Shown here: positions 1 through 64,000 of the stretch, in pieces
How positions within the stretch are numbered: position 1 is the first letter of the stretch
Layout of the letters: the number at the start of each line of letters is the position of its first letter
DNA from: Asparagopsis taxiformis
Lineage: Eukaryota; Rhodophyta; Florideophyceae; Bonnemaisoniales; Bonnemaisoniaceae
DNA length: 64,000 nt
NCBI GenBank assembly: GCA_030407315.1
Contig: JALQPE010001801.1
Location: 1-64,000 of the forward strand
Direction of reading: 5' to 3'
Made by a program: the position numbers and the translations under genes
Notes under the pieces: generated by a model
Databases searched by the model: none
Told to the model about the DNA's origin: nothing
Seen by the model: the letters and a program-made list of their open reading frames with translations, nothing else

Positions 1-218
1 CCTCCCGGCAGAATAGGCATCACGGGACCCCACTAATTGTTGGGCTATAGGCTTGCGTTGAGGGCTTGCGTTCTTCTGTCGTCTTCATCCGCATCATTCC
101 GAGCTGCCCTGTCTTCGGCCTACGATCTTTCTTGACCGGGATGGAAAAACTGTCTTGTGGCGAACATTGACAGGTGCCGGTTGACTTTGCCTGGCAGACC
201 GGCGCGGAGCATTGGCGA

Positions 219-1150
219 TTACTTCTTCTTCGAATCCCAACCGCCTGATGAAACCAAACGAACATTGTCGGGAATCGGATACGACGCATTCCTGAAATAC
301 GTGTGATACCTCGTTGTCGTGTGTGACACAACTCTGTCGACATGCCCTGCCCCGGCATGTTGTACATGGCCGTGACCGATGAAGACTGAACGTGGCGGAA
401 CGATTACCTTCTTCAGCTTCATCGTCTTGGCGTACATATCTAATTCCAGCGCTTTGGAAAAGACGTACTTGTGGGACCCTGGACACACCCAGATAGGGAA
501 TGGGTCATCTCCGTTGGCAATAACAAAGTAACCCGGAAGTTGATCTTTGCGGTCGCGAGGAGGAACAGGGAAATCATTGTGTGGGACCTGCCGAGGACAC
601 CCCTTTCCCGTTATCAAAAACGTCCCCCAGATGCCGGCATGACAAGTTTTTCTCCCGGTAAACCGCACTCCTCCAGCCCTATCAGCCGGACAAGGATTCC
701 CAACCACACATCCAGCAGGGCTCGCCGCGTCACAAACTTGAACCGGTCGATATGCGTCTCATCGTTCTCGGCATAGTCAACCAGGCAGTGGCGCGTAGAC
801 GTGAAGCGAGCCCTCCCCTCATTCCGGTTCTTCTCATCTGTTTTCATCGTCCCCTGTATTGACAATGGGACTCCACAGCTGCCGGTTCCCAGGGTCCTTG
901 TGCACCTCCTCCCCCTCCCACGTTCCCAAAAGTACCGAAACAATTCCTGGTTAGGATTTCTTCCATGAGACCCAAGTCAAATGGGAACTTGTCCGACGCA
1001 TCGAGGTAGCTTACATCCGCGAAATTGTGCATCACCGTATACCCTCGCTCGTTGATTTCCGTTCGGCAATTGTGGAAGTACGCCATACCAGTGCCGGCCT
1101 CATACGAATCCTTCCAGCTTGTAGACATTCGCGCAACCTGGGCGAAGTCC
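219..1150 (-). other. 2OG-Fe(II) dioxygenase (PhyH-like) domain segment
   Basis: This is the C-terminal part of the broken fusion. Read across two frame changes it carries the whole active-site set of a double-stranded beta-helix dioxygenase: an ERGYTVMHNF start typical of phytanoyl-CoA-dioxygenase-like folds, an HxD metal motif (HND, plus-strand 573-581), a PGSH loop (471-482), a distal metal-binding His in HVQHAG (about 355-375), and an Arg in the TTRYHTYF strand (about 298-320) that would bind 2-oxoglutarate. Such enzymes oxidise lipids, proteins or methylated DNA bases. The substrate cannot be read from sequence; linkage to a ParB domain and a neighbouring DNA methyltransferase suggests nucleic acid. 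Confidence 0.6.
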
Positions 1151-2689
1151 AGCCTCGAGGGTAGAAACGTCGATGTAGGCTCACACATCGCCTTGGCAGC
1201 CATCTTCCACGCTGCGAAAAACATCGGATAGATGGTCTCGATCTCGAAAACAAGATGACGAGCCCGATGTTGTTCCGGAATATGCAGCCCCTCAAACACA
1301 GGGTCCATCGCCACTTGCTTCAAATACCTCACCTCTCTGCCCTCCTCATCGATTTCCACACTCTCCAATAACAACCTGAGCTCAATCGGGGGCAGACAGC
1401 CAACCCTCACCGATGCGATGACGTCCGCGGGACGCTGCGCCAGATGATGCCCTTCGGCTCGGTCTTTGACTTCGAAATCGTCAGGAAGAGATGGCATACG
1501 GTCGTCGAACAGGAGGTCGTGTTCAGAAGGAGAGTCACGAACGATGTAACCGTCTTCATCGACTTCCACTCCTTCCGGAACAGTGAATGTAATTGTCACT
1601 TCGCGGACCCCCTTGCTTTCGACTTGGCCCTCGTCTGCACCGTTTTTGTCTTCCTCGTCCGAAGCGGTATGGACAGATTCTTGGTTGGAGGGAGTCGCAC
1701 CAGCACGTTGGTTATCTTGGGGGACAATCTCAACGGCAGAATCGGGGGAACGGGCGGAGTCTTCGTCACCCTCATCACCGAAACAGTGGCTTGTTGTTGA
1801 TCGGTGGGTTTATCAACAACGGCCTGCTCTTCTTCCCCGGCGGATTGTTGTACCACAACCGGCTCTTCTTCCTCGAGGCGTGTGCTCCCCGTCGAGCGAA
1901 GTCGCTGTGAACGGCGGCGGATGCCATGCGAAGCAGGCTCATGTTCGACATTCCGCTGCTTCTTGTGAGTGAGTCTCACATTGGCAGCAGAAGGGCGGCG
2001 TTTGCGTCGAGCCTTAGTCTTCTTCTTCAATGTCGGATTGAAAAACTCTTTCAAGTTCGTTTCCAAATCCTGTAAACGCGTGGTTCTCCGTCGCATTCGA
2101 ACCTCACTGCTCCGGTCGTCCCCTCTATACATTGCAATGGCATTGGTGAGATGCCATTGCAACTCCTTCGGCTGCTTAACCGACCCAATTGCCATCTCTG
2201 TGCTCAGAAATGACTTGCGCATAATACTCTTTGGGCGCCCATACGCAGCGTACAGAGAATTTGCTATTGCAGTCACGCGACGGACGTATGTATAGAAGTC
2301 GTTCACGTCAAAGCGTCCATCCGGACGTCCACCATGAGCAGGGTTCAAGTACTCCGAAAGACCACGCAAGACGAAGACAAAGTTTTCTTCCAGCAACTCG
2401 CGCACTATCTTGTGGTCCAGGTGCGTTATCCCAATCTCGTTGCGGCGGCGCTCGGAATTGTTCAGCTCACGCAACACTTCGTCGAGAACAGGATGCTTCA
2501 GCGTTGCTATAGCCAAACGCGTCCACCGCCGGGCCGTGTTCGTTGAATTCATCATCCCCATGAACTGCGCCTCGAACAATGTTCGGATGACATCAGACTC
2601 ACGCAAGTCGCCAGCGTTTTCCACGTTATTTGCAACAGCAATCGTACGGATGAACTGCTGGATGGACGACAAGATTCGAACCAGGGAGC

Positions 2690-3323
2690 GCTCCGTCAGT
2701 TGCGTCCCAGTCGTATGGTTCGACTCTGCACTCTTGTGGATGATCTCATGAGGCTGAAGATCACTGTCGTCCTTGCGGCGAAGGTAGTACAGAGGCTAGT
2801 AACCCAGCAGAGCTGAGTAACCCGCGCAAGCGGTTTGCCTGTGTGCAGCTGTGTGGTTCTGGTGCATACGGTGAGGCGCGTGAAGTCATCGGCAATGCTA
2901 TGCATAGCATTGAGACGATGCAGTCCGTCGATCACGGTCACGTTCGCATTGGCATGGAATTTGCCATTCTGGAACAGACGCGTGTCGGCGGGCAGATGCG
3001 TGTTCTGCGACCTCAGCACCGTCACAGTGATACGCGAAGAGCTCACATACCCCACAGCCAACATATTGTTGCGCAGGTCCTCCACGTGGTCTTCTTTCAC
3101 ATCCCGAAGGGTCACGGCCGGTTCCACTAGCTGCCTCACCAACACAGTCGCTCCTTCTCCGACGTAATCCGACGTCACAAACTTGGGCACCGTAATTTGC
3201 GTCCCCTGCTGCTCACGAATGCTTTCCGCCACCTCCGGTTCGTCGTCCACCTCGGTTACGTCCTGCGTAGTAGCTTCGGTGACGTTGGAGCGAGCAGGGT
3301 GCTTCGTGCCTCCACTGGAGGCT
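2690..3323 (-). other. ParB/sulfiredoxin-like domain segment
   Basis: The minus-strand translation has the ParB-N pattern: a segment ending LRNNMLAVGY before a hydrophobic strand, then the diagnostic DGLHR box inside VIDGLHRLNAM (plus-strand 2905-2938). ParB-N folds bind or hydrolyse CTP, and some family members are nucleases. Past this box the frame changes: the continuation HKSAESN followed by LTERSLVRIL lies in the next frame and runs into the ORF that ends at 1596. The domain assignment rests on the DGxHR box and flanking pattern only; no profile search was possible. Confidence 0.6.
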
Positions 3324-4215
3324 CTAGCAGAGCGAGCAGTGTTTCGTGCCTCCACTGGAGGCTCTGGCAGAGCGAGCAGGGCGCTTCGTGCCTCCCGAAA
3401 CCGGAATGGAGCGTGCTGGATGCTTCGTACCCCCCGAACCAGTGATTTCGCCTGCCGGACCGGTACTGGGCATCCGTCCCGAGCTGGCCCTGGTTCGTCG
3501 CTGCGTTGAAGTTTGACGCTGCAGCAGGGGTACGAATGTCGCTAGGGCCATCCTCCGCAGCGGGGCGCATCATCCGAGTATCCAAGGGTAAAACGCCGCG
3601 GCGTATGCTCCACCCATCGTCTCCGGCGGTCCCTCGGCGCCATCAAACATGTACGGGAACGGGAGGTCCTTGAACTTGTCCTTAGTCGCAATGTTGCGCA
3701 CGACGATATAGTCGGCCTCGTCGGTTTCCGGCAGCTTGTGGTTGTGCAGCGTGCGCGGAAGGCCAACATCGCCACCAGCAGTGCTCATCGAAGCCGTCCC
3801 AATATGCACAGCCGCACCGTCCACGTCCGCAAACAAATTGACATCGACGCCGCGCTTGAGTCCGCGCGACTCCGCTGACGCGCTCACTTGATCGCCGCAA
3901 ACCTTTGAAAACAAACTGCTGAAATGCGTATACGCCATGGTTGTTGAGTTGGAAAGGGAAAGAGATGGTTGATGTTGACGTATTGAGTGATGTGGATGGT
4001 ATGTTTCACGTTGAAGAATGGTCGTGAACGCCAATCGCTGGAAATAATAACACAATACAACCGAAATTTTGTTAGGTACACACCTATCGTGACCGCTGGA
4101 ATGCAAGAGAGGCAATCGAGATGTGAGTGTCCGTTCGGAACGGGCCCGAGTCGGGCTCTCGAAACCTGACGAGGTGGCGTGAAGCAGGCAGTGTCCTTGA
4201 TGTGTAATGTGTTTA

Positions 4216-4445
4216 AATTACAGCTGTCAAGCTAGGCGGCTTTTGGGGCGGCTGCGAGCACCCCTTTATCCGGGGGACACCCTGATTTGAGTTAAAATTT
4301 GGGCTATTCTCAAAAACATGCACATGTGAACATGTTTTTGAGATGGGGGTGTGCCGTACGGCACAATCGACCCGCTCAAATCAAGTTTTTTACAATATTT
4401 TTGCTGCCCGAAATTCTACAATTTCTGGGCTGGCCAGCAATGCAT
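4216..4445 (+). repeat. Hairpin module, copy 1 (left outer copy)
   Basis: The module starts with an outer tail (AATTACAGCTGTC, then GCGAGCACCCC) and CCTGATTTGA. It continues into a 12-bp-stem hairpin (CTCAAAAACATG, 10-nt loop, CATGTTTTTGAG), then the 14-bp palindrome GTGCCGTACGGCAC, and ends near CTGGCCAGCAATGCA. The outer tail is shared, inverted, only with the copy at 9415-9663, which makes these two the likely matched ends of one element around the methyltransferase-SET gene. Confidence 0.75.
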
Positions 4446-4984
4446 AGCTATCTGCTCTAAACCGATTCTAACAAGCAGAAAGAATCCTCTCCTTCATGAC
4501 GATGCTCTCGAATTGAGTGCAATGCAACGGACTCCCTCCAAGAGAACGACAAAGCATCGTCTTTTCCAAGGCATTTCCGTACGAAAATAATCGAAAAACA
4601 TATTTGACTTAACCTAACAGCTATCGCGAGCACCGTACTCAGCTATATTTCCTCTGTAATTTCCTTCCTCCAACCAATCAATAGCCGCTTGGTCACAGGC
4701 TTAAAAGCCTTCCACTATCTGTCCTATCCATCGAAGACCCTCGGAGGGTTCGATCCAGGCCTTGATCACCCATGATGGGTGTGCAACCCGAGAAATTGAA
4801 AATGGAACATATTGCGACAGGGACGAGATATCATTCAATGAAAGAGAAGTTCTCTTTCGTTTACTTTTTTCTAACAAGATTCTAAACGTCTACAAACCCT
4901 ATGTCGTCCGTCCGTTTTCATCCCGGAGAGATGTGGATGTGAGGTAAGACGCAGTGGTGATGTTGTGTTGATTCCCACAGACGG

Positions 4985-5210
4985 AGTGGAGGAGGTGGCT
5001 ACGGAGGAAGCCTGGAGAACTTCTCCGGTACTGACATCTCACATGTTGAGAACATGTGAGATGTCAGTACCCATGGATGAGAAGAAACACATGTTCAGGT
5101 CCGGTTCGGATATTCGATCCATTAACGGAGGTGGTGGAGGAGGCTATGGTGGAAGCCTGGAGAAGAATAGAGTAGTCCTATACCCATGGATCACAAGAAG
5201 ACGTTGTGGG
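4985..5210 (+). repeat. Diverged tandem duplication, GGA-rich
   Basis: Two units share GGAGG-GGCTA-GG-GGAAGCCTGGAGAA and, further on, ACCCATGGAT followed by AAGAA. The first (about 4990-5090) contains the hairpin insertion and the second (about 5130-5210) does not. No coding function is evident. Confidence 0.55.
5027..5071. repeat. Perfect 21-bp-arm hairpin with 3-nt loop
   Basis: GGTACTGACATCTCACATGTT (5027-5047 is the exact arm) is followed by GAG and then its exact reverse complement (5051-5071). It sits in one copy of a diverged tandem duplication whose second copy (about 5130-5210) lacks the hairpin, so it arose after or during the duplication. Confidence 0.9.
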
Positions 5211-5459
5211 CTCCTTTTCGAAGCCCATTCGTCTCTTGAATAAATTTAGCACCCAAATCATATACGATTGCCGAGTTGACACCCCGTATGTCTCGTTGGT
5301 AGAAATAGCAGGGGTTCCACCACTCAGCTGGCGGGAAGTAGTTACTGATTATATGAGATATGGCTTAGCTCCCGCCAAAACCGATAGCTCTGGGCTCAGG
5401 TTCTCCAAATGTGGTTATACGAATGTGTTCTGACAATGCTAGAAGACGAATATCTGCAT

Positions 5460-5660
5460 CCTGATTTGAATTAAAATTTGGGCTATTCTCAAAAACATGC
5501 ACATGTGAACATGTTTTTGAGATGGGGATGTGCCGTACGGCACAATCGACCGCCGAAATCGATGTTTTTTGCAATATTTTTTCTGCCCGAAATTGTAGAA
5601 TTTCTGGTCTGGCCAGCAATGCATCTGAGCTGGACATCCCCATGTCCAGTGGCCGTCCGG
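5460..5660 (+). repeat. Hairpin module, copy 2
   Basis: Same hairpin and GTGCCGTACGGCAC palindrome as the copy at 4216, starting directly at CCTGATTTGAATT and lacking the outer tail. It ends in GAGCTGGACATCC. It lies 330 bp upstream of the methyltransferase-SET start codon and is an inverted partner of 9415-9663. Confidence 0.75.
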
Positions 5661-5989
5661 ATGTCGCTCACCTGGTAAGCGTGATGCACCTGTGACAACC
5701 TATGTGACTGCAGTCACAGCCGCCATGGCGGCCGTGCAGTACAACACTCAAAGACAGGGAATCACAATCTTTTTAAAATTTTTCTCTACCACGTATCCGT
5801 CACAACTTATTACCTACACCGGTTACGGGTTTCAAGACCTTTCCAGTGCTGTGTACCCGTATACTCTGTTCCGTTCGATATCAACCAGTGTTCCTCACGA
5901 AAGAGTGCAAACGTCACGAGATACGTCGTCAAATTTGACTGTCTCGCCGAGCGGTCGCCATCCTGTACCGAATTTCCACTCATTCCATT

Positions 5990-8900
5990 ATGACGAATAA
6001 GCGCAGGCGCAACAGCAATCCGATCGTTGACGACGCAACCGTGCCAATTCTGCGCGAACCCGCTAGCCCTTGGGAGGATTCTAGTGACATGGGTACACGT
6101 CGAAACGTAGGTCGCGCCGCCCGCGAAACTACTCTCGCTGGCAAAGACTTCCTCCGCCTCTTGCTGGATTTATTCGCCCACTCAAGTTTCGCAGACTTGA
6201 CGGACAAGCCGGGAGGTTTCACATACGCGGACCTTGGCGCTTGGGTTGCGCAGGGCACGGAAGAACAATTTCTGGCGCTGCAAGGTCGACTCAGCATGGC
6301 CTTCAGCGGTCGTTCGAAGAATGCTGGAGTCGAGGCGGATGTTGCCGAAATCGTCATGGCAGAGATGAACGTTGAGCGAGCCAAGCAGATTGTTCGTCTG
6401 GCATTACCGATTGCCGAGTTTTCAAGACAGGATGAGCGTATCGGGCAATGGGTTGAGCACTGCATCCTTTCTGGGATCGTGCCGCAGACCTTCCTTATTG
6501 GATGTAACATGCTTCCTTCGCCACTACAGGCGCCGCAGCGCGGGGAACCAAGCGCCTTCGTTCTTGCTCCACCGGAAACGTTCGAGGTATTGATGTATTT
6601 CCAAGCGTTGTCTATCATCCGAAATCACAACAAGAACCTGCCGCGTCGCCGAATAGGCGACGCGGCCGAAGAGGGGAACGAAGCCGCACGCGTCCCAGCC
6701 CATCGGAAAAGCACTAATCGAGCTTGTTACGTGGTTCAAGTTTTATACCATGCTTGGACCGATGTGGCCTTCGCCGCAAAGTTTTCCAGCTTCGAAGAGT
6801 TGATGGCGCCGTACATCATTTTCGACAGCAGTGAGCATTGGTTTGACGTGCTCGATGAAGGTCTATTCGCACCGATGGAGCAGAAGCTAGATCTCTACCA
6901 CGACAAAGCTCCCCTATCTCATCCTGATGGATATGGTGGAAAAGTAGAGACAAGAACCAGTGCGCAGCACAGTGCATTTAGGGACCTTGTGAGGAAGTTC
7001 TTCGACCGGTTGCAGTTTCTTATCGTCAACCCGGACCTGTACACCTGGCCGGAGTCCGACCGCTGGGGGGCGCTGGAAATATACTTGTCAAGCGGAAATC
7101 CGGACAAGCTGCCAGCGTACTTTGACACCCTCGACGAAGACGTTATGGCTGTCCTCCGCCCGGCACCACAAGCCGCGGACGCAGAAAAGGTCCCCAAGCC
7201 GGTTGATGACACTCCCACTCGTCGCAACACAGGAGGGAGAGGTTTGGTTCCGTCGACAAGACACACAACCAGGCTTCAACTTGGACCTGGGAGGACCAGT
7301 CTTACTGCCCAAGGGCCGTCTCCCCCGTCACCGTCACCCCATGCGACAGAAGAGCAGGAAAGTGAAGGGCAGGCTCTCGCAAAGGACTTTCTTTCGAAAA
7401 TGAGTCAGTATTGCCGGGTGTACGACGTCCCTTTCGAAGATTTGGTCAGTGCCGACGAGAGCCGAGAACACGTGCCCATCACGGGCAACGTTCAGCTCAT
7501 TCTGACTGATCCGCCCTACAATGTTCGTCGTAAGAGGAACGATTCCAACTCTTCGTACGACAGGCTAACTGCAGAAGATATGCAGGCTAGCATCGAAGTG
7601 TTTGACGAGCTGTTGCGCCCCGGTGGCCACGGCATCGTGTTCTGCTCCGTTTTGCAGTTCTACGAATGGTTCCATTACTTGGAAACGTACAAAGGACCGC
7701 AGTCAGAAGGCCCAACCGATGCTGCTGCCAGTGATGACGGGTCGGATGAAGAAGAGGTTACGTCCATGAATTCGGACTCCGAAGCATCGCAGCACAGTGG
7801 CGAAGAAAGTGCGGATGAGGAGGAGGACGAGGAGGAGGAGGACGTCGTTCGGAATTCAGTTTTCTTCGTTGACGAGGTACCTCTGTTGTTTGTCCGACTA
7901 CCTGGGCACCTCTATCAAATGCCGGGGCGGAAGAGGTACCAACGCATGAACATGGCAGAGGTCGCTATCCACTTCTGGAAGCGAGGTGTTCCGTTCAAGA
8001 CTGGAAGCGAGATGGTGGCCTATAGGAACCACGGATACATGGACGGCACGTACCCGGCGTGGTGCAACGTCACCATCAATATGCCCGCCATCGATTCGAA
8101 TGAGATGGTGTGGCGAACAAGGAGCACAACCGGTGCTACGGTCAGAGTTCGTGCAGAGCAGAAGAGCGTCGCTCTCATGATGGAGTTGATCAGCCAGCAT
8201 TCACAGCCTGGTGATATTGTTGTCGATCCATTCTCTGGCACTTTCGCAACGGGAAAAGCAGCTATGAGCTTGCCTGAGCACCGTGTTTTCGTCGGCAGTG
8301 ACATGGACAAATTGTGTGTGGCACGATCGCTTCCAAAGCTGTGTGCAGTCATGTCACGTGTAATTCTTTCAAACAACACTGACATGAGGGTCACGACAGA
8401 AGCGAAACAGAGTGCTGAGAAGTTCTTGGCGTCCCCCTCTGTCACGATGCGTACGCAGAGGGAACGCAGGATCATCGAACCCCCACCTGGCCTTCCCCTG
8501 TACCAGAGGTTCCCGAAATATATTCGGCAGTACCTCTGGCAGCTGTGCCCAGAGTCGATTGCGTCGCACGAGCACATGGAAAAACCGGTACATTATTGGC
8601 CACCTTCCCTGCGCCGCTGGTTGCAAACTGAAAACCCTCGCGTGATGCGGGCACACGATTGTGTTGCGAAAAAATTGAGCGTTCGACCATCGCTGATTAA
8701 GCATCCAAATGCAGGAAGAGGGCTCTTCGCTGAACAGACATTTAATGTTGGCGACGAAGTATGTGCATACTACGGAACTGTTGTGTACTCTGATATGAGC
8801 AAGGAGTCGATGAGGTTCGCGTACGGAGAGGGTCACATGGCGATAACGAAGGAAACATTCTTGATGTATGCCATCAAGCTGTATGCAACAGCGGAGGACG

Positions 8901-9187
8901 ACGAAAACATCGAGCATCCAATTTGGATTGTTCCGGCTCCGTTCTGTTCGGCGCAGTTCATCAACGACCCGCGGTATTTGCGAGGTGAGGACACTCCGGC
9001 GGAAGACACCAGGCGGATGGCCAACGTCGAGTTTGTCGAGAACTACAGCAGCGGTTCGACGGGGAAGAAGCTCAAGGCGAAGGACCTAGAAAATCCGAAG
9101 ATCATTGTAGTACGTGCAATCCGCGATATCCGTCCGGGGCAGGAGCTCTACGTTCATTATGGGACAGCGTTTAGAGCATGGAATTAG
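5990..9187 (+). CDS. DNA amino-methyltransferase fused to a SET domain
   Basis: An uninterrupted 1065-codon frame runs from an ATG to a TAG. Residues 1 to about 480 are not recognised. Residues about 500-790 form an AdoMet-dependent DNA amino-methyltransferase: the catalytic DPPY is at 507-510 (TDPPYNV) and the AdoMet-binding motif DPFSGTFATG is at about 746-755. Catalytic-before-cofactor order is the beta class of bacterial N6-adenine and N4-cytosine enzymes. A very acidic insert (about 575-625) sits in the target-recognition region. Residues about 898-1062 are a SET domain, the fold of protein lysine methyltransferases: AGRGLFA near the start, INDP followed by ANVEF in place of the usual NHS box, and GQELYVHYG at the end. 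All key motifs are present, so both activities look possible. DPPY is more typical of adenine enzymes. The gene lies between inverted hairpin modules and diverges from the ParB-dioxygenase gene. Confidence 0.9.
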   Translation: MTNKRRRNSNPIVDDATVPILREPASPWEDSSDMGTRRNVGRAARETTLAGKDFLRLLLDLFAHSSFADLTDKPGGFTYADLGAWVAQGTEEQFLALQGRLSMAFSGRSKNAGVEADVAEIVMAEMNVERAKQIVRLALPIAEFSRQDERIGQWVEHCILSGIVPQTFLIGCNMLPSPLQAPQRGEPSAFVLAPPETFEVLMYFQALSIIRNHNKNLPRRRIGDAAEEGNEAARVPAHRKSTNRACYVVQVLYHAWTDVAFAAKFSSFEELMAPYIIFDSSEHWFDVLDEGLFAPMEQKLDLYHDKAPLSHPDGYGGKVETRTSAQHSAFRDLVRKFFDRLQFLIVNPDLYTWPESDRWGALEIYLSSGNPDKLPAYFDTLDEDVMAVLRPAPQAADAEKVPKPVDDTPTRRNTGGRGLVPSTRHTTRLQLGPGRTSLTAQGPSPPSPSPHATEEQESEGQALAKDFLSKMSQYCRVYDVPFEDLVSADESREHVPITGNVQLILTDPPYNVRRKRNDSNSSYDRLTAEDMQASIEVFDELLRPGGHGIVFCSVLQFYEWFHYLETYKGPQSEGPTDAAASDDGSDEEEVTSMNSDSEASQHSGEESADEEEDEEEEDVVRNSVFFVDEVPLLFVRLPGHLYQMPGRKRYQRMNMAEVAIHFWKRGVPFKTGSEMVAYRNHGYMDGTYPAWCNVTINMPAIDSNEMVWRTRSTTGATVRVRAEQKSVALMMELISQHSQPGDIVVDPFSGTFATGKAAMSLPEHRVFVGSDMDKLCVARSLPKLCAVMSRVILSNNTDMRVTTEAKQSAEKFLASPSVTMRTQRERRIIEPPPGLPLYQRFPKYIRQYLWQLCPESIASHEHMEKPVHYWPPSLRRWLQTENPRVMRAHDCVAKKLSVRPSLIKHPNAGRGLFAEQTFNVGDEVCAYYGTVVYSDMSKESMRFAYGEGHMAITKETFLMYAIKLYATAEDDENIEHPIWIVPAPFCSAQFINDPRYLRGEDTPAEDTRRMANVEFVENYSSGSTGKKLKAKDLENPKIIVVRAIRDIRPGQELYVHYGTAFRAWN

Positions 9188-9414: not shown

Positions 9415-9663
9415 TTGAAATGGACGCCCGGTGGATGTCCAGCTCAGTTGCATTGCTGTCCAGCCCAGAAATTCTACAATTCAGGGCAGAAAAAATATTG
9501 CAAAAAACATCGATTTCAGCGGGTCGATTGTGCCGTACGGCACACCCCCATCTCAAAAACATGTTCACATGTGCATGTTTTTGAGAATAGCCCAAATTTT
9601 AATTCAAATCAGGACGTCTTCCGGACATAGGGGTGCTCGCGGCCTAGCTCGACAGCTGTAATT
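9415..9663 (-). repeat. Hairpin module, inverted copy 3 (right end)
   Basis: This is the reverse complement of the modules at 4216 and 5460, with the same 12-bp-stem hairpin and GTGCCGTACGGCAC palindrome. Beyond CAAATCAGG it continues outward through GGGTGCTCGC and GACAGCTGTAATT, matching the tail of the 4216 copy inverted. No convincing target duplication was found at the two ends. Confidence 0.75.
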
Positions 9664-9845
9664 GTACCTCATTAAATACTGTTGATGACTGCCTACCGTA
9701 TACAATCTGGGCTGTTGGCGTATTCTCCGGTACTTGACCTGACCTGAACGTTCATCGCAGACCGTTGTGGTTACCGACACTATACAGCAATCTTTTTTGT
9801 ATCTCGTGCAACTCAATCGTTCCATCGCTTCGGGAAAGCTTCATT

Positions 9846-12129
9846 ATGCCGCCGCGTATTGCGAAGAAAGCTCCAAAGCCTCCGGGCCTCCAGAAAACCC
9901 GGTCAGCAGCTGCTGTATCGAGTGCCCGACAATCCCGTGCGAAGAAGCGGTCTGGGCCTACCGGCAGCATTGAACCGCGGTCCGGTAGTCGCAAGACGGA
10001 CCGGCGCAGAACTGGGGATCCGCAGCGAGAAAGTGAGGAAGGAGGAACGGCGCGGAGAGAGATGGGGCTTGACCGAGGCAAGCGTGCTCGCAGGGACAGT
10101 GAACATCATGATGATGACATGATAGTGGCTCAAAACATGTTGGAATTGCGGCAGAGTGCTATGGCAAAGGTAGTTCCTCCCGGGTTGGCAGATGCGGAGG
10201 TGCTGCAGACGGAGTCCCAGCCGGGGGTTCGCGAGACACTGGAGGCTGTGACCCCCACTGCGCCAACTATGCCGAGTACATCAGCCCCAGCAGGTAATGC
10301 AGTCAGGGACCCGAGGATAGCGGCAAGGGATGTTGTTTCTGAGCAACGTTCACAGGATGCCAACTATCATCGGCGGTCAGGTGGTACTGAGGGGAGAGAG
10401 CAGCCGGAGTGCGGGCCTCGTCACAACAGACTGTCATTGGTGCCAAATATGCGCGTAACGCCCCCGCGACGTCAGGCTATTGCCGATGGAGGACATCATA
10501 TTCCCGATAGCGTGCGAGATGGGGGACGGTGAGGGCAGAGAGGTTGCATCCGCCGGAATCCATCGATTTAATGGCGAGTCGCATCAATGCGCAGAAGAAG
10601 AAGATCGCGGAGCTGGAAAAAAAGTGTTTAGCCAGGACATAGCAAACAAGGCGCTCACCACGGAGATAGTTGCGTTGGAGGCTAAGGTGAAGACTCTGCA
10701 GGCGGAAAATGCCAGCCTTACTGCAATTGCGAGAACAGGTAGAATCAGTGATCACGGTGGCGGTAAGTCGAAAATACAGAAAGCCATTCCTGTGAAATAC
10801 CTTGGAGTTCTTAGGGCGGTTGAGGAAAACCTGACAAAGTGGTGCAAGAACGAGACTATGGAGCTGGACCCTATAGCGGAACAAACGCAGAGACGTTGGA
10901 CTGGACGTACCATCGAGGTAGAGCCGGTAGAAGGGACACTTTGGAGCGAAAACGGTGTAGGATATATTGCTACCCCTCCGGGCTATATCATCAAGAATCT
11001 GCAGTGGTATACACCTTCGTACAGGGACGAGAGTGATCTGCTGAATGACTTGGTGCGACACGTACTGCGTCAAAGTCCGTGGTGTGATGTGTTTTCCGAT
11101 GAGGAGCAGCGTGTGTGCTGTCAAGAGGCTGTGGCGGGGAGCAAGGAATTGAAAGTGAAGGTGACGCAGAAACTGTCCGACGTGATGAGTGCACGGAAGC
11201 GTAATGCGAGGGACAGATTGTTCGGTTCGCTGGGGTACACGAAATTAATGTCTAGATGCACGATGCTGACGACGCGAGCTGAGATGGACGAGCGAGAGGA
11301 TCAAAAGCGCGAAGCGTCTGAGAAGCTTTTGAAACGGGAAAGCAACGGTGATTTGGATATGGGGAGGTGGCGAACGGCACCGTTCTCAGAGCTGCGATAC
11401 AGCAAAGGCATGGTTCCTGACAGCTTCGAAATGGAAGTGAATGGTGATGCATGGTTTAACAACCGAGTAGCTGTGAATGTGCTGGACATCTTCAGGGGTT
11501 ATTCGATACGACCAGAACAAGTAATGGACATAGAGACGAGCATACTAACGCTGGCGCGCCTGGATGCTTGGCTAGTGACTACTGTGGAGTGTTTGGATGA
11601 ACCGAAGGGGAAAGGAGGTGCACGGCAGAAGGAGTTTACAAGGCGGTACAGTCAATATGTGGGGGTAGCTTTTCAGCAATTAGTTGGTATGGTGGTGTAC
11701 TGCATGTCTTGTCTCCAAGGCTCGCAAGCAAGGGAAGAAACGGACGTTGTCGAGAGCGAACAGCGGACTAGTGCACAGTCACGGCATGTGTTTGCAAGCC
11801 GTACTGTGACGAGAGAGGCTGTTGAAGTGTGGCAAAGCGGAGAGGGGTCTGGAATTGTTCATGTCGTTGATGATGTAAACCGCTGCTCATCACTTGTTCT
11901 AGTGTCCGAGGATTGGATTCAATCGCATATTACGTCAAACCTCGGTGCTGTAATGGATTGTGTGATTGCGCAAGGACTAATTGGCGCAGAACTTTTCGTC
12001 GTTGACCCATATGCTGGACACCTGAGTGCAAACCTGAATGTCGAAATCAATGCCCCACAGTATGGGGGCATGGAGCGGCGCCATGCAGCCACTGCTGATA
12101 ACGGTTTTGGCGTAATGGAGGATGGTTGA
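9846..12129 (+). pseudogene. Coiled-coil protein of unknown function, companion of the Plavaka-like transposase
   Basis: The gene starts at an ATG (MPPRIAKKAPKPPG) with a basic, disordered N-terminus. Frame 9846-10532 ends early; the reading resumes in a second frame (about 10520-10620, containing ASRINAQKKKIAELEKK) and then in a third (about 10620 to the TGA at 12129). The shifts coincide with a G5 run (10521-10525) and an A7 run (10617-10623). The joined reading puts a leucine-heptad coiled coil in the middle (ELEKK, then IVALEAKVKTLQAENASL). The C-terminal half has no motif I recognise. It converges on the transposase gene, with 77 bp between stop codons, so it is probably the accessory gene of the same element. 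Either the gene is broken or the runs are sequencing errors. Confidence 0.55.
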
Positions 12130-12206: not shown

Positions 12207-15200
12207 TTATTCTTCTTCATTATCATCTGTGAACTGGTAATCAGTGTTGGTGTAGAAGCGGTTGAGATAGAAACGGTGGTCCGACCAGTGCATTTGTTTC
12301 GTAAATGGCTTGACTGGAAAGTTACTTCGTACGATGTGCACGGTGCCAGATATAGTAGATGCAGGAATGAGGTCAAACCAAGGACCACCTGCACTGTGGG
12401 ATGCAGTGTCATTGCTGTCAACGGATCCGTTGTCCGGGTCCCATGTGGACCACTTTAAACAAATGCACCCAAGTGATTTTTCCACAGCGGTTTTTGGGGC
12501 AAAGCAGGTCATATACTGAACGAAAGCGAGTTCTACAGGTTGAAACAGGTTTGGAGACTGCAGGCGTACCAGTGCCAGGACGCGCCCTACCCATATGGTT
12601 CTGTAGTCATCGGCAGTTCCGGAGATGACGACAAAGGAGTACTGCGATCTCTTTGCGGGGCCGAATGATGAAGTTGCAAAGACGCGCTGCTGCTTGTGCC
12701 TCGACACGTTTGTGGGGCGAAGCATGCCACTGTGCGGGTCAAAGTCGTCGGCATCTGGGACGTACCCTCCCATGACGTAGGCGGACTTTACCACGGTGAC
12801 GGAAATGTCCATGTCATGTATTGGAGGGCCTTCTGCCGTGGCGCGCAGTCTAGCGAGGGTGAGGAACGCTTGTGCAGCTGTGTCACCGAGTTGCTGGAAT
12901 AGCGTTATGGTGCCAGACGGGAACGAGGAGTTGTGCAGAGGCAAAAGAGTGGCAGGATCGGGCTGTCCGTCGATATCTGCAACGAGGAGGGTTGCATCGG
13001 GCAGCAGGGAGGCAAAGTCGTGCAGTGCAACGGTGAATCCGTCGCGAACGAGTACTGCACCGTCTGTGGGCGATATCATGCGTGGGTTTCCCAATGTGTT
13101 CGATGGGGTGTGACCAGTTGGAGTGGCCAAGGAGAATTCCATGTGGCGAATAGTCTTTTCCATGGCTGTGGAGCGCCTTCGAGAGGTTTTCCTATAACTC
13201 TGTTTGAACAGAAGATGCGAGTGTTCGTAGGGGCCTGCATCAATGTGTTCCAGGGCGCCATATCTCTGCAAGTCACCGGGAAGATGGTCTAGAAGATGGA
13301 ACTTGAAAGTTTTGAGACCTGTGGTGTGGAATGGGCCGAGGGTGGAGAGCATTGATTGTTTGAAATAGGAAATGGAGTTCTGGAGGCTTTCTAGTTCGGC
13401 GGCAGTCCAGTGCTTGATGCGACCGCGTTTCATGACCCATGCGACGAGGTCAGAGTATTGCGTGCAGATGGAAGTGAGGGGGGCTGTCTCTACTTCGTCA
13501 CAGCATGTGTCAATGAATGCTGCGATGAAAGGGAACACCATGTCGACATGGTGATAGTCTTTGGCTGCGAGCATGCCGCGTATGCCGTCCTCCGTGAAGA
13601 GGCCGTTCAAATTGGTGCCCTTCTCACCCTTGGAGAAGTCGACATGAAGACCGGTGATGTAGTAGTCGCGTTCGATAGCGGACAGAATGCTGTTTGAGCC
13701 GGCGAGGATGGATTTTTTCACCTTCTTGAAGGTGCGAGGTGTCCCGGAATGGGAGGCAGTGGTGGTGGTGAGGTCTGGGGAGCTGAGGCGGTGGACAATG
13801 CACTGTTTGATGAGCTTTGAGATGCCGAGGTGGAGATTGTGCAGAGGCTCGAAGGAGAAAATGTTGTAGGGGTCTAGGGGACTGTTGGTGGGTAAAAGAG
13901 CGGTCGATTCGAGGACAGAGTGTTGTTCGAGGAGGGAGAGAGCTTCGAGCGGAGCAGTTGTATGCTCCTGAGCGCTCTCTTGGCGTGCAGAGCGTGTATC
14001 ATCGAGGGAGCGGGGCTGGTGTGGCGCGGTGGATTCAAGTTGAGTGGCGGGGATGTAGCAGCGGTGGCAGGGATGTGTGGTGGTAGTGCTGTTGCGAGTG
14101 CATGACAGCTCTTTGGCCTCTGGAAAGTCGCAGCAATAATTGGCTAGGATGGGAAAGCATTGGCGGGCAGTTGCAGTGGAGTCTGTGCAGGGGAACCCGG
14201 AAGAGAACGCGGTGGATAGGGACGAAAACACTTTTTCGAGTGCTTTATGAAGAATATCAATTTTGCGAGCGCGACTAGCAGAACTAGAGGTTGTCGGCAT
14301 TTCATCACCGAACAAGGCGTTGGACGAAGGGTTAACAATGTACGGAAGATACCCGACGATGGTGAGGCCGGTACGGATGCAGTGGCGACGGAGGGGGGGC
14401 GGAGAAGTTGAGCAGTGTGACGTGTATGGGGTATGCGACGATTGCGGAGCTCTTGAGGCTTGTGCTGCTCTTGTCGGAGTACACTTGGAGGAGGCCGGCA
14501 AAGGAGGAAGGTGTGGGATCATTTTCCTCTGCCCATACGACCTGTGGATCTTCCGAGAGCTGCACGCGCTGTCTAGTAACCTGGTGCAGCGTTTTCGCGA
14601 ATTCTGTGTGTAGGGGATGAGAAAATATTGCGGTGCCGTCTGGGGCGGTCTGTGGGGAGGGGTGGAAGAGAGTATTTTGGTCGTTAGCCAGTGCTAACTG
14701 CCTGCGGAGCATGTCGACTGGGTCGCGGAGGTACAGCTGTGCCGAGTACTTACCAGTTTTGTCTGGAATGATGTGGCTCTTGTAACCTTCGGTGCGGAAA
14801 TGTGTTTCGACCATGGAAGCGGTAACGTGGCGACATTCTTCTACGGTGCGAACGGCGCTGTTGAACTTTTCTAGGGAGAATGCGGGGTCTTGTAGGATGG
14901 TGATGACTTCGCTCACGCGGCCAGCGCCGGCCTTGTACTCGAGGGTTGTGAGACTGGCGGCGAGGGATTGCACGAGGAGGTCTGCGCGGGAGGGGGTTGA
15001 GGTTGGTGGCAGTGGAGCGTCACAGGGTGAGTCGCTGGAGGAAGCACGACCAGATTCTGGGTCTGGGGAGCTGGGTTGCGGGGAATCATGGTCGCCGTTT
15101 CGAGCAGGCTCATGGGTGACGGCAGGGACACGAGCGTTGTTGAAATGTTGGGGAGAGGGGTTGAAACGGTAGCGACACGTTCGCTCATGCAGCGCGAGCG

Positions 15201-15438
15201 CATAAGCATCTACGCAGTAGTAGAAGCACCCTTCATACTTGCATTCCATGTCGAGTTTTGACGCAAAAGGGAGGATTGCGAGCTGAACAGGGGAGACTGT
15301 GCCGTCCAGATGCGACCAATTTTTTTTTGTGGTGCTTTCGAGACTTGGAATGTAACGTGTTCGTAGTTTTTGGGTAGTAGTTTTGTGCTCACTCCAGCTG
15401 ACATCCCAACGGTGGAATTTAACCGAGAGTTCAATCAT
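12207..15438 (-). pseudogene. Plavaka/CACTA-like (KDZ-related) transposase, one frameshift
   Basis: The first frame (ATG at 15438) carries a C2H2-type zinc finger near its start (CKYEGCFYYC with a later HERTC), a proline/serine-rich linker, and the YSDKSS-AYPIHVTLLNFS strand that is the first catalytic region of Plavaka-type transposases (usual form: SDKT followed by a YP-hTLGNI strand). The second frame carries VGYLPYI, PILANYCCDFPEAKEL, a CHRC pair, EPLHNLHLGISKL and a late DHLPGDLQRYGALEHIDAGP segment, all in the order expected for this superfamily. It ends with TAA at 12207. The frames meet at a seven-base run (plus-strand G7, 14393-14399), so one indel there joins them into a protein of roughly 1070 residues. 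It may be a natural frameshift or a sequencing error. Confidence 0.7.
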
Positions 15439-15826
15439 TTCCAACTGTTACATCACATTGCGTGCTGGCAACGTGTGCATGGAAGGACGAACGACTGCCC
15501 TGGGAGATGAATTTTCAATTAATTCATTTGTAATAATAAACTTTTTTATTTCCGAACTTCGTGGAATCTGAATGTGCTTTACAGCGGATATGCCACGGAT
15601 CATGTAAGGAAAGCAAATGGATTCTCATATATATGATTATATTTTTATATTCGTTGTTCTCGATCCGGATCTCATTGTTCGGGGAATCAGAGACCATGGC
15701 TTGGGCCATACTCAATCTCACTGCCGGCGATGATTTCGAGTATGCACAGCAAGACTTAAGCGGACGCTGAAAGCTGTCCGGTCGACGCCGCAGGCTCCAC
15801 TCCGCCCTCATCACTGACTGAGATTC
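15439..15826. other. Upstream region of the transposase, no clear gene
   Basis: There is a short AT-rich segment (15520-15660) and a plus-strand frame around MAWAILNLTAGDDFEYAQQD (15694-15770) without homology I recognise. The transposase promoter should lie here. Confidence 0.3.
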
Positions 15827-15950
15827 TTTGACCGCCTTTGCTTTGTTTAGTGTAGAGGATGGAACGAAGGTACGTGCGCGAATCTTGATCAAGATTCGCG
15901 CACGTACCTTCGTTCCATCCTCTACACTAAACAAAGCAAAGGCGGTCAAA
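15827..15950. repeat. Perfect 124-bp palindrome, no spacer
   Basis: The arms 15827-15888 and 15889-15950 are exact reverse complements, 62 bp each, with the centre at TTGA|TCAA. The left arm contains a cassette signal like those downstream (TTTAGTGTAG, then GATGGAACGAAG, then GTACGT), so it probably derives from the adjacent array. Palindromes this long and perfect are unstable in vivo and are also a known product of fold-back in library or assembly steps. Confidence 0.95.
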
Positions 15951-16132
15951 GGGAAGCGTGGAGTTTGAGTATGACTATTTCCGTTGATGCGATATTTTTC
16001 CTTGGAAGCATGTTGACTCATGGTGTGTATTGAGCGGAGGATGGAAGAGAGGCACGTGAAGTTATGAAAGTATGCTGCGAGGGAAGGTTGGTTTTGAGTC
16101 TGACTGTTGTGGTTGATTCCAATGTTGTGTAG

Positions 16133-17448: not shown

Positions 17449-17558
17449 CGAGCAGTTTCGTAAATGAGAGAATAAAATACGGTCTGATATGGGCCCTGAA
17501 TTTACCATCCGCTGTAATTTCTTCCCTCCCGGTTTTCGCTGATATATTTTATACTGAA

Positions 17559-17771
17559 TGTCGGGTCCTAGTATTCCGCCTAATGTACTAGAGAAAGTGG
17601 ATGTCGGGCCCTAGTATTCCGCCATATGTACTAGAGAAAGTGGACGTCCGCATCCAAAAAATTTTTATTTTTTTTGGACGCGGAGGTTCATTTGTTCTAG
17701 TAAATCTCGGGGCCGATTAGGACCCGTACTAGAGAGACTGGACGTCCGCGTCCACTTCCGAAAACACAGAC
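17559..17771. repeat. CTAGTA / GGACGTCC repeat cluster
   Basis: There are two tandem copies of a 45-bp unit (GTCGGG-CCTAGTATTCCGCC, then GTACTAGAGAAAGTGGA), then an imperfect inverted pair of GGACG motifs around a T-rich centre, then GTACTAGAGAGACTGGACG up to ACACAGAC. The last 46 bp (17727-17772) match, inverted and with few mismatches, the sequence at 53294-53339. Both sites abut a broken transposon gene, so this is probably the end of a separate element family. Confidence 0.65.
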
Positions 17772-19373
17772 TTGGATCGTGCGGGTCAGGAGATTCAGTA
17801 CCTGTCGGGCGACGATGCTCGCAGTAGTATCGACAGTCGTATCCAGACGTTGAACCAACAACAGAGGGGTGTGTTTGACAGAATCATGGACACGGTTCAC
17901 TTGCGTGCGAACGAAAACATGCTGGAGACGGATGGGAAGGCATTCTTCCTGCAGGGGCATGCTGGGGCTGGAAAAACGTATCTGTTGTCTCTGCTCCGAG
18001 ACGCTGCAATGGCAGAGGGCTTCTTTGTTGAGATCACTGCTACCACTGGTATCGCAGCAGCGCTGTACAAGGGAGGTCGAACGCTTCACAGTTTGCTCGG
18101 AATCGGAGTGGATGACCAGGACAGCACTGAACAGCATGCACGTCTTTCGAAATACGGTCCAAACACTCAGCGTGGAAGTCTCATTCGCAAAACGTCGTTG
18201 CTGATTGTCGACGAGTCTTCGATGATGCAGAAGATTCTGTTTGAGCATGTGGACACAATTCTGAAGGACCTTCGTGTGAGTAGCAGCGGGGCGGATGAGA
18301 ATGAAGAATCGTCTGTGTCGAGTAGACCGCTGTTTGGCGGAATCACGGTTGTGTTTTCTGGCGACTACTTGCAGTTGCTTCCCGTTGTTCCATCACGGCG
18401 ACTAGTGGAGGACGAGCACGGAAACCAGAGTTACATCAACGTCGCATTGCTTGACGAGCTTCCGTGGTCATCTCCGCTGTGAGGATCAATGCAGATTGTT
18501 CGGATTATGCGTCAAGTGCGGCAAGCAGATGACGCCGAGTTTGCACGACTACTGATGAAGCTGGCCAAGGGCACATTTGAATCGAGCGCAAAGCTTCCGC
18601 TGCGATCTACCGGGGACCGCAATGCAGCGTACAACTTTCTCTGGAGATGGATTTCGTCTGGGAACAAACACGATGTGGATCTCGATCGCATGATTGTGTG
18701 TCCTACAAACGCATTGGTGGAGGAGCACAACAAAAAGGCATTGGCCAAGTTTCCTGGGCGTTCGAGAAAGTTTTACTCTGCGACAGTCATCAAACCTAAG
18801 CCCCCGACGCAACAGAATCCGGTACAGGATGTGGTCGTTCCGGAAATGACGTACAGCTATACGCCTTCGGGTGTTCCTCCGCACAAACTCGAGCTCAAAG
18901 AAGGGTGTCCGGTGATGGTTATCCGCAACGTTTTGCACCCGCACATTGTGAATGGGTGCATGTTTACGGTTGAGAAGATGGGTAGAAAGACAATACTGCT
19001 TGCTCGGAAAGATGAGCATGGGACGACGTCAAACTTTCTCCGACATCGAATAGACTTTGCATTCGAGTTTACGGGGGTGAAAGTGCTGAGGAGACAGTTT
19101 CCGATAAGACTGGCGTTTGCCGCAACGGTTCACAAGTCGCAAGGGCAGACGATGAAAAAGCTAGTGGTCGATCTCAGCTCCAACTTTTTCTCCAACGGGC
19201 TGCTATACGTTGCACTGTCTCGCGTACGCAAATCGAACCACGTGCTTCTGCTGCACAAGAGTGAGGATACTCCGATCGGGGCCGAGACCATACATGATAT
19301 GCCTGTAGCTGTAGGGAACCCTGTGCTCCCTGAAGCGGTTGCGTTTGCAGAAGGGAGCAGCAATAGTAGTTGA
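17772..19373 (+). pseudogene. PIF1-type helicase, 5'-truncated with internal TGA
   Basis: One frame runs from the repeat boundary near 17733 to a TGA at 19371-19373, broken only by an in-frame TGA at 18480-18482. Before the stop it has the Walker A motif GHAGAGKTYL (about 61 residues in), TATTGIAAALYKGGRTLHSLLGI, the Walker B motif LLIVDESSMM, and VVFSGDYLQLLPV. After the stop it has CPTNALVEEHN, RLAFAATVHKSQGQTM and LYVALSRV. These are the superfamily 1B helicase motifs of PIF1 proteins, which unwind DNA 5' to 3' and form the helicase half of Helitron RepHel proteins. No Rep nuclease domain and no ATG precede it; the frame begins within the neighbouring repeat. It is probably a remnant of a Helitron or of a dispersed PIF1 gene. 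The internal stop lies between LPWSSPL and GSMQIVR, where a Trp codon is likely ancestral. Confidence 0.85.
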
Positions 19374-32891: not shown

Positions 32892-33154
32892 GTATGCTCT
32901 CTCTATGGGTGCTTTAAACGCCCTTTAGTCACGCATTGATATCCAAAATAGAAAAATGAGATACTCCTTTAGCCCCCTCCGATTCTGACTGGCGTTCTCG
33001 ACTTGCTCAGTAAACTTCTGCTTATGGCGGAATTCCCCTTTATGAAATGTCACCTTATACTGTCTCATGTTCAAGTGGGCGCGTAAGCATCCTAAAGCAG
33101 AAGTTGCAACTAAGAATCGGCGAGTTCTCCGAAGAGAATTTTCGAGCTGCCCAA

Positions 33155-33228
33155 GCAACTCAGCGAGGAGTCGAACCTCCGCCCTCTGGCTTTCCCGAGA
33201 GGTGCCAACCACTCAGCCATATGAGGAC
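33155..33228 (-). ncRNA. tRNA-like sequence with Pol III A and B boxes, one per array unit
   Basis: On the minus strand an A box (TGGCTGAGTGGTTGGC) is followed by CCTCT...AGAGG, able to form a 5-bp anticodon-like stem, and then a perfect B box (GGTTCGACTCC, plus 33167-33177). The acceptor stem does not pair and the anticodon-like loop is 10 nt, so a working tRNA is unlikely. It may be a tRNA-derived remnant or an internal Pol III promoter. A hairpin GAGTTGC-TTGG-GCAGCTC follows. The same sequence occurs at 36049, 38943, 41837, 44731, 47625 and 50518. The A box abuts a CCTCATATG half-site of the terminal palindrome. Confidence 0.45.
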
Positions 33229-33402
33229 ATGTGTCCGAAAGGCAAGCAATGCTTTATACAATGCAATGCTTGCGTTAGAAGTTTTATAAAAGCGATATAA
33301 AGAGGGAATGCTAAATTCTAATAATTTCTAGTAGATTTTTTTTCTGCCTCATATGAGGCCAGGGTTGACCTCATATGAGGAAATTTTAATGTCCGATAGA
33401 CA

Positions 33403-33462
33403 CTAGACAAGTAAAGTTTATCCTTGTAAATGTTAGCGAACCATGAGAGAGGGCACCCCTAG
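33403..33462. repeat. 60-bp inter-element spacer, first of six
   Basis: CTAG, 52 bp of unrelated sequence starting ACAAGTAAAG, then CTAG. Exact copies lie at 36297-36356, 39191-39250, 42085-42144, 44979-45038 and 47873-47932. It is probably the original genomic segment between two insertions. Confidence 0.9.
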
Positions 33463-36296: not shown

Positions 36297-36356
36297 CTAG
36301 ACAAGTAAAGTTTATCCTTGTAAATGTTAGCGAACCATGAGAGAGGGCACCCCTAG

Positions 36357-39190: not shown

Positions 39191-39250
39191 CTAGACAAGT
39201 AAAGTTTATCCTTGTAAATGTTAGCGAACCATGAGAGAGGGCACCCCTAG

Positions 39251-42084: not shown

Positions 42085-42144
42085 CTAGACAAGTAAAGTT
42101 TATCCTTGTAAATGTTAGCGAACCATGAGAGAGGGCACCCCTAG

Positions 42145-44978: not shown

Positions 44979-45038
44979 CTAGACAAGTAAAGTTTATCCT
45001 TGTAAATGTTAGCGAACCATGAGAGAGGGCACCCCTAG

Positions 45039-47872: not shown

Positions 47873-47932
47873 CTAGACAAGTAAAGTTTATCCTTGTAAA
47901 TGTTAGCGAACCATGAGAGAGGGCACCCCTAG

Positions 47933-53300: not shown

Positions 53301-53520
53301 TTCTCGGAAATGGACGCGGACGTCCACAACCTCTAGTACACCTAGTATTACTAGGCGGACGTCCATGTTCTCCAGTATTTTTGGATGTCCGCCTAGAACC
53401 GGACGTCCATGCGGTCTAGTACGTCTAGTATTACTAGGACGACATTCATTGTTTCTAGTACCACGGATGTCCCCCTCGGGATGGACTTCCGCCATGTCTA
53501 TGTCCACCTAGGACGGGCGC
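53294..53520. repeat. CTAGTA / GGACGTCC repeat cluster, second locus
   Basis: Repeated TCTAGTA, TATTACTAGG and GGACGTCCA motifs in both orientations. The first 46 bp are the inverted counterpart of 17727-17772. It truncates the Harbinger-like gene here, just as the other copy abuts the helicase relic. Confidence 0.65.
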
Positions 53521-53639
53521 CGGTTCAGAAATTCAAAAATTTCGACCCCAGAAATTTCTGCCGCCGTGCTCGACATGGATGTCCGCATCCATCACGGCGA
53601 CCACTCTATTTTTCCTTGTCGGTCGACTCCAATTTTGTC

Positions 53640-61027: not shown

Positions 61028-61052
61028 TTCACTACGGTGTTGAGAATGAAAA

Positions 61053-63458: not shown

Positions 63459-63684
63459 TATCGGATGAAACCAGTTTCGGTGTAGTAGACGAAGAATGAA
63501 GAAATAAAATTTCTGTTGAGGTGAATTTTGTAATAGATGGAAGTAGATAGGTGCGAGACATCAGGAAACCAGTCAGACGATAGTGTCAAGTCGAAGGAAC
63601 AGCGCAGAGACAGGTAGTGGAATAGTCGAAGTAGGAAGGGGCGAGGGTATCCGTCTTTACTAGAAATTGATGGCCACAGGAGCT

Positions 63685-63993: not shown

Positions 63994-64000
63994 AAGTAAC

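Follow-up and report, generated by a model that had tools for sequence, protein, structure and literature searches.

The window analysed here, the 64,000 bases C1679:1-64000 of a 141.5-Mb, 3156-contig eukaryotic assembly from the red alga Asparagopsis taxiformis, carries two divergent genes that are cargo of a DNA transposon of the Plavaka type, about 20 kb in length. One of them encodes a fusion protein of a DNA methyltransferase and a SET domain, and the other joins a ParB-like domain to a putative 2-oxoglutarate/Fe(II) oxygenase (hereafter the ParB/oxygenase gene). The reading that we prefer, with a probability of about one half, is that the two proteins form an element-borne writer/eraser module that keeps the transposon expressible and lets it escape host silencing. 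Copy counts given below come from genome-wide listings of matches and are lower bounds.

The Plavaka element and its copies

The genes of the element are ordered as ParB/oxygenase (minus strand), methyltransferase-SET (plus), a third gene (plus) and the Plavaka transposase (minus). The transposase was recognised by profile PF18759 (1.5e-16, in the open reading frame, ORF, 12207-14522), which gave 123 scored matches genome-wide, and its frame spans 1036-1037 amino acids (aa) in many of the listed copies. Copies on three other contigs (C2181, C2505 and C250) match the window at 96-98% from position 65 (C250: 694) to 4445 and at 99% from about 5050 (C250: 4276) to 15888, and then continue to 17770; the intergenic stretch between the matched blocks is variable and rearranged in them. 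The C2181 copy has both ends (C2181:92344-112232, 19,889 bp), with terminal inverted repeats, TCTGTGTTYTCGGAARTGGACGCGGACGTCCA, that are equal at 30 of 32 bases and have CG outside both ends. The terminal sequence TCTGTGTT... is found at this left end and at all five right ends examined. The ends of the element read TCTGTG..CACAGA, followed by CG at four of the five right ends and by CT at that of the window; a single copy has both ends (CG, CG). For Plavaka elements, target-site duplications of 2-3 bp and TGT..ACA or CATCA..TGATG ends are given in the excerpted text of PMC12730594. A left border at the stop codon of the ParB/oxygenase gene, taken from the C2505 copy, was dropped because 40 listed copies match for 140 bp past the stop.

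The methyltransferase-SET gene is present in at least 175 copies: 138 SET matches of near-equal score, assigned to it by score and not read, and 37 further full-length protein matches. Among the matches listed, 43 are full-length near-identical copies of this gene, and 40 ParB copies show 98-100% identity. In 32 of the 43 listed Plavaka/SET pairs within 12 kb the transposase lies 4.8-6 kb downstream on the opposite strand, in nine it lies 9.4-9.8 kb upstream on the same strand, and two pairs fit neither arrangement. Listed copies in which the methyltransferase-SET gene is reversed relative to the transposase, at a near-constant distance, are located on C138, C358, C480, C495, C503, C110, C135, C436 and C213. 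The reversed cassette fits either a flip across inverted copies of the R repeat described below or one inverted subfamily.

The methyltransferase-SET gene

The sequence-only reading of this stretch had placed DPPY and AdoMet motifs and a SET domain in one gene, and this is borne out by the protein of ORF 5990-9187, which matches Pfam N6_N4_Mtase (PF01555; 3e-15, 57.2 bits against a cut-off of 26.7) and SET (1e-6, 29.5 bits against a cut-off of 22.4). The DPPY motif (residue 507) is followed by DPFSGT (residue 746), with an acidic insert of 39 residues between them. In the beta class of N6/N4 methyltransferases motif IV (DPPY) stands ahead of motif I, and the enzyme is assigned, on its motif order, to the beta-class N6/N4 DNA methyltransferases. 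The closest solved structures in the PDB are DpnA (4e-8) and CcrM (0.002), which are named adenine or modification methylases. According to the part of PMC8885841 consulted, DPPY characterises bacterial N6A enzymes and SPPY most N4C enzymes, so that N6-methyladenine (6mA) would be the likelier product. The SET part has FIND at the position expected for NHS; the tyrosine of the final motif is retained, here and in a second algal family described below.

When the whole protein was used as a query, with the 8,000 candidates sharing most words being scored, a near-identical copy of itself was the only match. Ten synonymous and seven nonsynonymous variants were counted in 20 copies of the gene; these had been picked by protein score, and the counts were for this reason not used as evidence of selection. 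The host genome contains 150 scored matches to PF01555, which fall into several frame classes (about 1186, 1106, 943 and 701-999 aa). A further N6_N4 methyltransferase gene, of 637 aa (1.3e-14), adjoins a truncated ParB/oxygenase gene on C250 (L051:7977-9890).

The ParB/oxygenase gene

The divergent neighbour had been described as a ParB-dioxygenase fusion. The divergent position and the fusion hold, and other copies contain it as a single exon; the window copy is not one ORF, being broken by indels (32 gap letters across 3281 bases aligned with the C250 copy). An intact gene begins with MADTHFSS and encodes a ParB-like domain (approximately residues 250-335), a basic middle part, the oxygenase-like core and an acidic tail, EEEEQFSDG. 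The C250 copy has an ORF of 1100 aa, with foreign DNA entering just ahead of the oxygenase core, and protein P0002 (367 aa) has about 110 near-identical residues in common with the end of this ORF and continues through the core to the end of the protein. Frames of at least 1330 aa are open in 43 of the 123 listed ParB/oxygenase matches, 18 of them being 1364 aa long.

A comparison of 23 copies gave 63 synonymous and 53 nonsynonymous variants, where synonymous changes would be expected to make up 0.23-0.30 of the total (p 5e-13 to 4e-8, with variants treated as independent, which is a simplification). Nineteen of these copies were chosen by DNA similarity to a 601-base piece at the start of the gene; the window, C2181 and C2505 copies and the C250 reference came from loci around the methyltransferase gene. 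Given this synonymous excess, the ParB/oxygenase gene has been under purifying selection. This result bears on one alternative, namely that the two genes are captured host or bacterial passengers with no present role. The ParB/oxygenase and transposase genes are indeed broken in the window, and the ParB/oxygenase frame falls short of 1330 aa in 80 of the 123 listed matches; however, selection on the gene, the invariance of its catalytic residues in distant relatives and the retention of methyltransferase plus SET in a second family at 23% identity already disfavour this explanation, which we hold to be very improbable.

A search of 5.8 billion proteins with the oxygenase core alone gave 30 candidates, four of which are relatives (E 1.8e-86 to 2.2e-17; identity 98, 53, 42 and 46%). 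In the resulting alignment of five sequences, where identity to the query across the whole alignment is 75, 50, 33 and 31% for the four relatives, every sequence has the H and D of HxD, the SH, the distal H and the R. The HxD/PGSH/H/R signature and the DGLHR motif (within VIDGLHRLNA) named in the sequence-only reading are both present, and a strict version of the dioxygenase signature arose in 6 of 20,000 shuffled versions of P0002. The HxD...H...R pattern is a requirement of 2-oxoglutarate/Fe(II) oxygenases, and the predicted facial triad and distal R of such an enzyme are conserved here. We take the core for a putative enzyme of this class. A scan of PHROGs gave just one match, at 0.19, to a family of unknown function.

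No match to PF00145, the profile of cytosine-C5 methyltransferases that covers Dnmt1/3 and Dnmt2, was found in the host in an exon-by-exon search of the draft assembly, for which prokaryotes gave the positive controls. Because of this, 5-methylcytosine appears an unlikely substrate of the oxygenase. TET/JBP families were absent among the Pfam matches of the oxygenase at E<=10. Both results would suit an oxygenase acting on proteins or on the methyl-lysine of histones, so that the pair would be a histone writer and eraser accompanied by a separate DNA mark. The fusion to a ParB-like domain suggests, against this, that the enzyme acts on DNA, and we consider a protein or histone substrate unlikely.

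No match was obtained with the ParB/oxygenase ORF as a protein-search query, low-complexity words perhaps crowding the candidates, and the 1100-aa ORF gave a single chance-level match in a tblastn search of phages. A search of viral contigs found no relative of either the methyltransferase-SET or the ParB/oxygenase protein, and a viral origin of the gene pair was for that reason not supported.

The ParB-like domain and a second algal family

Frames of about 1186 aa hold 43 of the listed methyltransferase matches. The one that was read, L064 (C92:50000-54599, 1155 residues of the frame), is a single chain with a ParB-like domain at its N-terminus, a methyltransferase with DPPF (2.3e-16) and a SET domain (4.1e-6), and is homologous to residues 193-1061 of the methyltransferase-SET protein of the window (23% identity, 7e-49). 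Its N-terminus has no Pfam ParB match; it matches a phage protein annotated as ParB-like (5e-5) and the ParB of a plasmid (1e-3), the remaining hits being weaker. Against a profile of six annotated ParB proteins it reached an hhalign probability of 96.7%, a value owed partly to choice, as the six members had been picked as hits of L064; the window-type gene played no part in this selection. The window-type domain (C250 copy) reached 91% against the same profile when aligned with L064. In the control comparisons the values were 0.07% for a different piece of this protein, 0.7% for the oxygenase core and 5.1% for a PhyH protein. A domain predicted to be ParB-like is, on these comparisons, attached to the writer in one family and to the oxygenase in the other. 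A plasmid tblastn search with P0005 returned three chance-level matches, and the Streptococcus and Bacteroides phage regions inspected for a fusion of ParB with a methyltransferase were not used.

Recurrence of the gene pair

Co-occurrence across loci, on which the sequence-only reading had staked the pair, was found: the lists of 123 oxygenase matches and 175 methyltransferase-SET copies yield at least 27 pairs within 13.5 kb, on 26 contigs, and 19 of them are divergent. Counted from the start of the ParB/oxygenase gene, 13 of 40 listed copies have a listed methyltransferase-SET gene within 13 kb (12 divergent), compared with a mean of 4.4 and a maximum of 10 in a shuffled-contig control; counted from its end, 15 of 40 do so (11 divergent). 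The fixed geometry of the recurring pair is more than chance. The methyltransferase loci examined, the window included, all run unbroken rightward to about window position 10680 (20/20). Past the R repeat, within a flank of 1.5 kb, 15 of 20 ParB loci (again with the window) have more sequence of the window element, in one case with methyltransferase sequence in reverse, and five have none there. The proposal of a four-domain system on a mobile element is likewise supported, given that ParB-like and oxygenase-like parts accompany the methyltransferase and SET domains, that both genes lie in the same transposon copies and that a second family joins ParB-like, methyltransferase and SET parts in one chain.

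The R repeat

A repeat of 183 bp, R, lies upstream of three genes of the element, and in five of seven aligned copies it also occurs past the end of the ParB/oxygenase gene. Its core is conserved at 98-100% across 73 distinct copies drawn from the loci examined, the flanks falling to 80%, and contains CTCAAAAACATG-N10-CATGTTTTTGAG and a 16-bp palindrome, TGTGCCGTACGGCACA. The exact palindrome has 6,301 sites in the genome; its reversed control has none, and about 0.03 would be expected by chance. Many of the first listed sites are spaced about 387 or 500 bp apart. Within the window the element discussed here is the only one with all 16 bases unchanged (three sites); a second element at the far end of the window has the same R core, with altered flanks and small edge changes in the palindrome. 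The conservation of R owes part to the common descent of recent copies. We take R to be a candidate protein-binding or structural site. The possibility that R repeats are the ends of a smaller nested transposon was dropped, since all 20 methyltransferase loci continue rightward into the element.

Further-reaching is the idea of a DNA-anchored epigenetic switch, in which a ParB-like CTPase clamp would load at the R palindromes, spread, and deliver the methyltransferase-SET writer in one family or the opposing oxygenase in the family of the window. The thousands of R sites might then serve to address marks genome-wide in a host without 5-methylcytosine machinery. We regard this version as rather improbable.

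Proposed function

In the module that we favour, the methyltransferase-SET protein would be a dual writer, methylating a DNA amino group (most likely adenine N6, judging from DPPY) and a lysine, probably of a histone. The ParB-like fold might hold or target the oxygenase on DNA, where the latter would remove or edit a mark other than 5-methylcytosine. Working at the palindromic R repeats that precede the three genes, or close to them, the two proteins would jointly determine the chromatin state of the element, with the result that the transposon is transcribable and host silencing is avoided. The substrates, the link between ParB and R, and the anti-silencing outcome are the parts of this scheme that we infer. 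Eukaryotic 6mA is tied to transcriptionally permissive chromatin, through a different enzyme family, in the excerpt of PMC12695648 used here, and an anti-silencing role is proposed for transposon-borne TET/JBP genes in that of PMC12730594.

Several observations weigh against the proposed module. The ParB/oxygenase and transposase genes are both broken in the window copy. The profile searches that had been suggested for the four domains succeeded for N6_N4_Mtase and SET, whereas the oxygenase and ParB parts match no Pfam or NCBIfam profile (E<=10) and no PDB sequence, which is answered in part by the invariant catalytic residues and by the profile-profile match of the ParB-like domain. By hhalign the oxygenase reaches 0.6% against one PhyH protein, and the window-type ParB-like domain taken alone reaches just 48% against the six-protein profile. 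The canonical SET motif is NHS, and in both algal families ND stands in its place. Eight of the 27 listed pairs are not divergent, six of these having the methyltransferase cassette reversed. In the three counts, finally, 27/40, 25/40 and about 97/123 listed ParB/oxygenase copies have no listed methyltransferase-SET gene nearby, numbers that can be read neither as absence nor as presence of the partner.

The opposite outcome, self-restraint, equally fits the anatomy: the writer would silence the element's own copies, in a form of copy-number control, and the eraser would briefly lift the silencing. Bacterial Dam methylation restrains some transposons, a load of at least 175 copies would select for host tolerance, and R repeats ahead of three genes would be suitable control points. 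The near-identity of the listed copies (the 43 of methyltransferase-SET, and the 40 of ParB at 98-100%) nevertheless points to recent vigorous amplification, and self-restraint appears to us an unlikely outcome, short of the preferred escape from silencing.

Another possible role is self-recognition, or the licensing of transposition, whereby methylated terminal motifs of the GGACGTCC type, or R, would tell a transposase or nuclease which DNA is the element's own, and ParB would cluster the ends. A methyltransferase of bacterial or phage type and repeated palindromes are consistent with this, as is the enrichment of ParB-methyltransferase fusions in phages stated in the main text of PMC12704722. 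It leaves the SET domain without an evident role, however; none of the scanned proteins of the element was recognisable as a nuclease, and the window's part of the element has just four GGAYGTCC sites. Licensing is, on balance, even less probable than self-restraint.

Feature coordinates and neighbouring sequences

Table 1. Features of the Plavaka-type element in the window (positions in C1679:1-64000).
Feature	Position	Strand	Remarks
Decayed ParB-like/dioxygenase-like fusion gene	1..3938	-	several indels, 40-bp tandem duplication; start codon at 3938; last codons past contig start
Oxygenase-like core, HND...PGSHK...H...R	219..707	-	catalytic residues invariant in 5 aligned sequences
ParB-like N-terminal domain (VIDGLHRLNA)	2820..3199	-	predicted by hhalign of C250 copy
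R repeat	4250..4445	+	312-507 bp upstream of ParB-gene start; 16-bp palindrome at 4350
R repeat	5457..5639	+	351-533 bp upstream of methyltransferase-SET start; palindrome at 5529
DNA methyltransferase-SET fusion	5990..9187	+	single uninterrupted ORF, 1065 aa, intact
N6_N4_Mtase domain, residues 501-774	7490..8311	+	Pfam; beta order, 39-aa acidic insert
SET domain, residues 909-1058	8714..9163	+	Pfam
R repeat, opposite orientation	9433..9644	-	202-413 bp upstream of third gene; palindrome at 9529
Third gene of element	9846..12129	+	two overlapping frames, 9765-10532 and 10480-12129
Plavaka transposase	12207..15444	-	two frames here, 771 + 370 aa; profile match in first
43-bp tandem repeat	17555..17640	+	2 copies here, many in C2505
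Right terminal inverted repeat	17739..17770	-	stop point of all five right ends examined

The right part of the element contains a perfect palindrome of 63+63 bp (15826-15951). Its second arm is missing from C2181 and C250, and it therefore arose either by a recent inverted duplication or as an artefact of assembly. Directly at the right end of the element begins a PIF1 helicase in two frames (17771-19373), and the window copy may have inserted into or beside this gene. Further along, a 2,894-bp unit is repeated seven times head to tail across 30702-49745; each unit has an ORF of a piggyBac-like DDE_Tnp_1_7 transposase of 729 aa (559 aa in the last copy; one was scanned by Pfam). The stretch 53295-64000 is the left end of the second element, with the same terminus and approximately 1.7 kb in common with the C2181 left end (93.5%). 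It carries five R repeats (three plus, two minus), with no ORF of at least 150 aa between the inner ones, and a coiled-coil-like ORF (61878-63458) with no detectable relation to the third gene.

Elsewhere in the assembly, contig C469 looks like a plastid contig. It holds 11 of the 13 genome-wide matches to PF00502 (phycobilisome), arranged in gene pairs close to an 892-aa frame, and we take these genes to be apc, cpc and cpe plus the core linker; they also mark the host as a probable red alga. Phycobilisome matches of equal score at 33273 and 210443 are separated by 177 kb, as if a circular genome had been assembled with an overlap.

Comparison with known systems

TET and SET genes have been described on transposons before, and the combination found here appears to be a new form of such cargo. 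Among the papers listed in a literature search, judged by titles and the starts of abstracts and with most subscription journals outside its coverage, none deals with a fusion of an amino-methyltransferase with SET, of ParB with methyltransferase and SET, or of ParB with an oxygenase in a eukaryotic transposon. If the proposed module is real, the idea that transposons bring their own chromatin enzymes, illustrated by single TET or SET genes, would come to cover a pair of writer and eraser and, beyond 5-methylcytosine, amino-methyl marks as well, here in a red alga. A possible single writer of DNA and histones, with a ParB-like module on the writer or the eraser depending on the family, would offer a direct test of the coupling between DNA and histone marks, and the 6,301 exact palindromes, if marked or bound as the model predicts, would be a ready readout.

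The comparisons that follow extend as far as the excerpts of the cited papers. Closest are the fungal transposons with TET/JBP genes, Plavaka among them (PMC12730594), which have a transposase of the same superfamily, an oxygenase gene beside it and a proposed anti-silencing role. The algal oxygenase, in contrast, is not TET/JBP by profile, it is accompanied by a methyltransferase-SET protein and a ParB-like domain, and the red-algal host has no C5-methyltransferase match. The HarbingerS and MuDR elements of Phytophthora (cited in PMC12730594) likewise have a SET gene on a DNA transposon, whereas the algal SET domain is part of a fusion with a DNA methyltransferase. Phage and bacterial fusions of ParB with N6_N4 methyltransferases (PMC12704722) join the ParB-CTPase fold to PF01555 and often reside on mobile elements, but they are prokaryotic; the terms 'SET domain' and 'dioxygenase' are absent from the main text of that paper. 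In the N4CMT-chromodomain protein of bdelloid rotifers (PMC8885841), a bacterial N6_N4_Mtase has been joined to a chromatin domain in a eukaryote, as in the alga, and its marks are associated with transposons and with a partner histone methyltransferase. The rotifer enzyme is a host gene with SPPY and a reader of histone marks, while the algal one is transposon-borne, has DPPY and carries a writer domain of the histone type.

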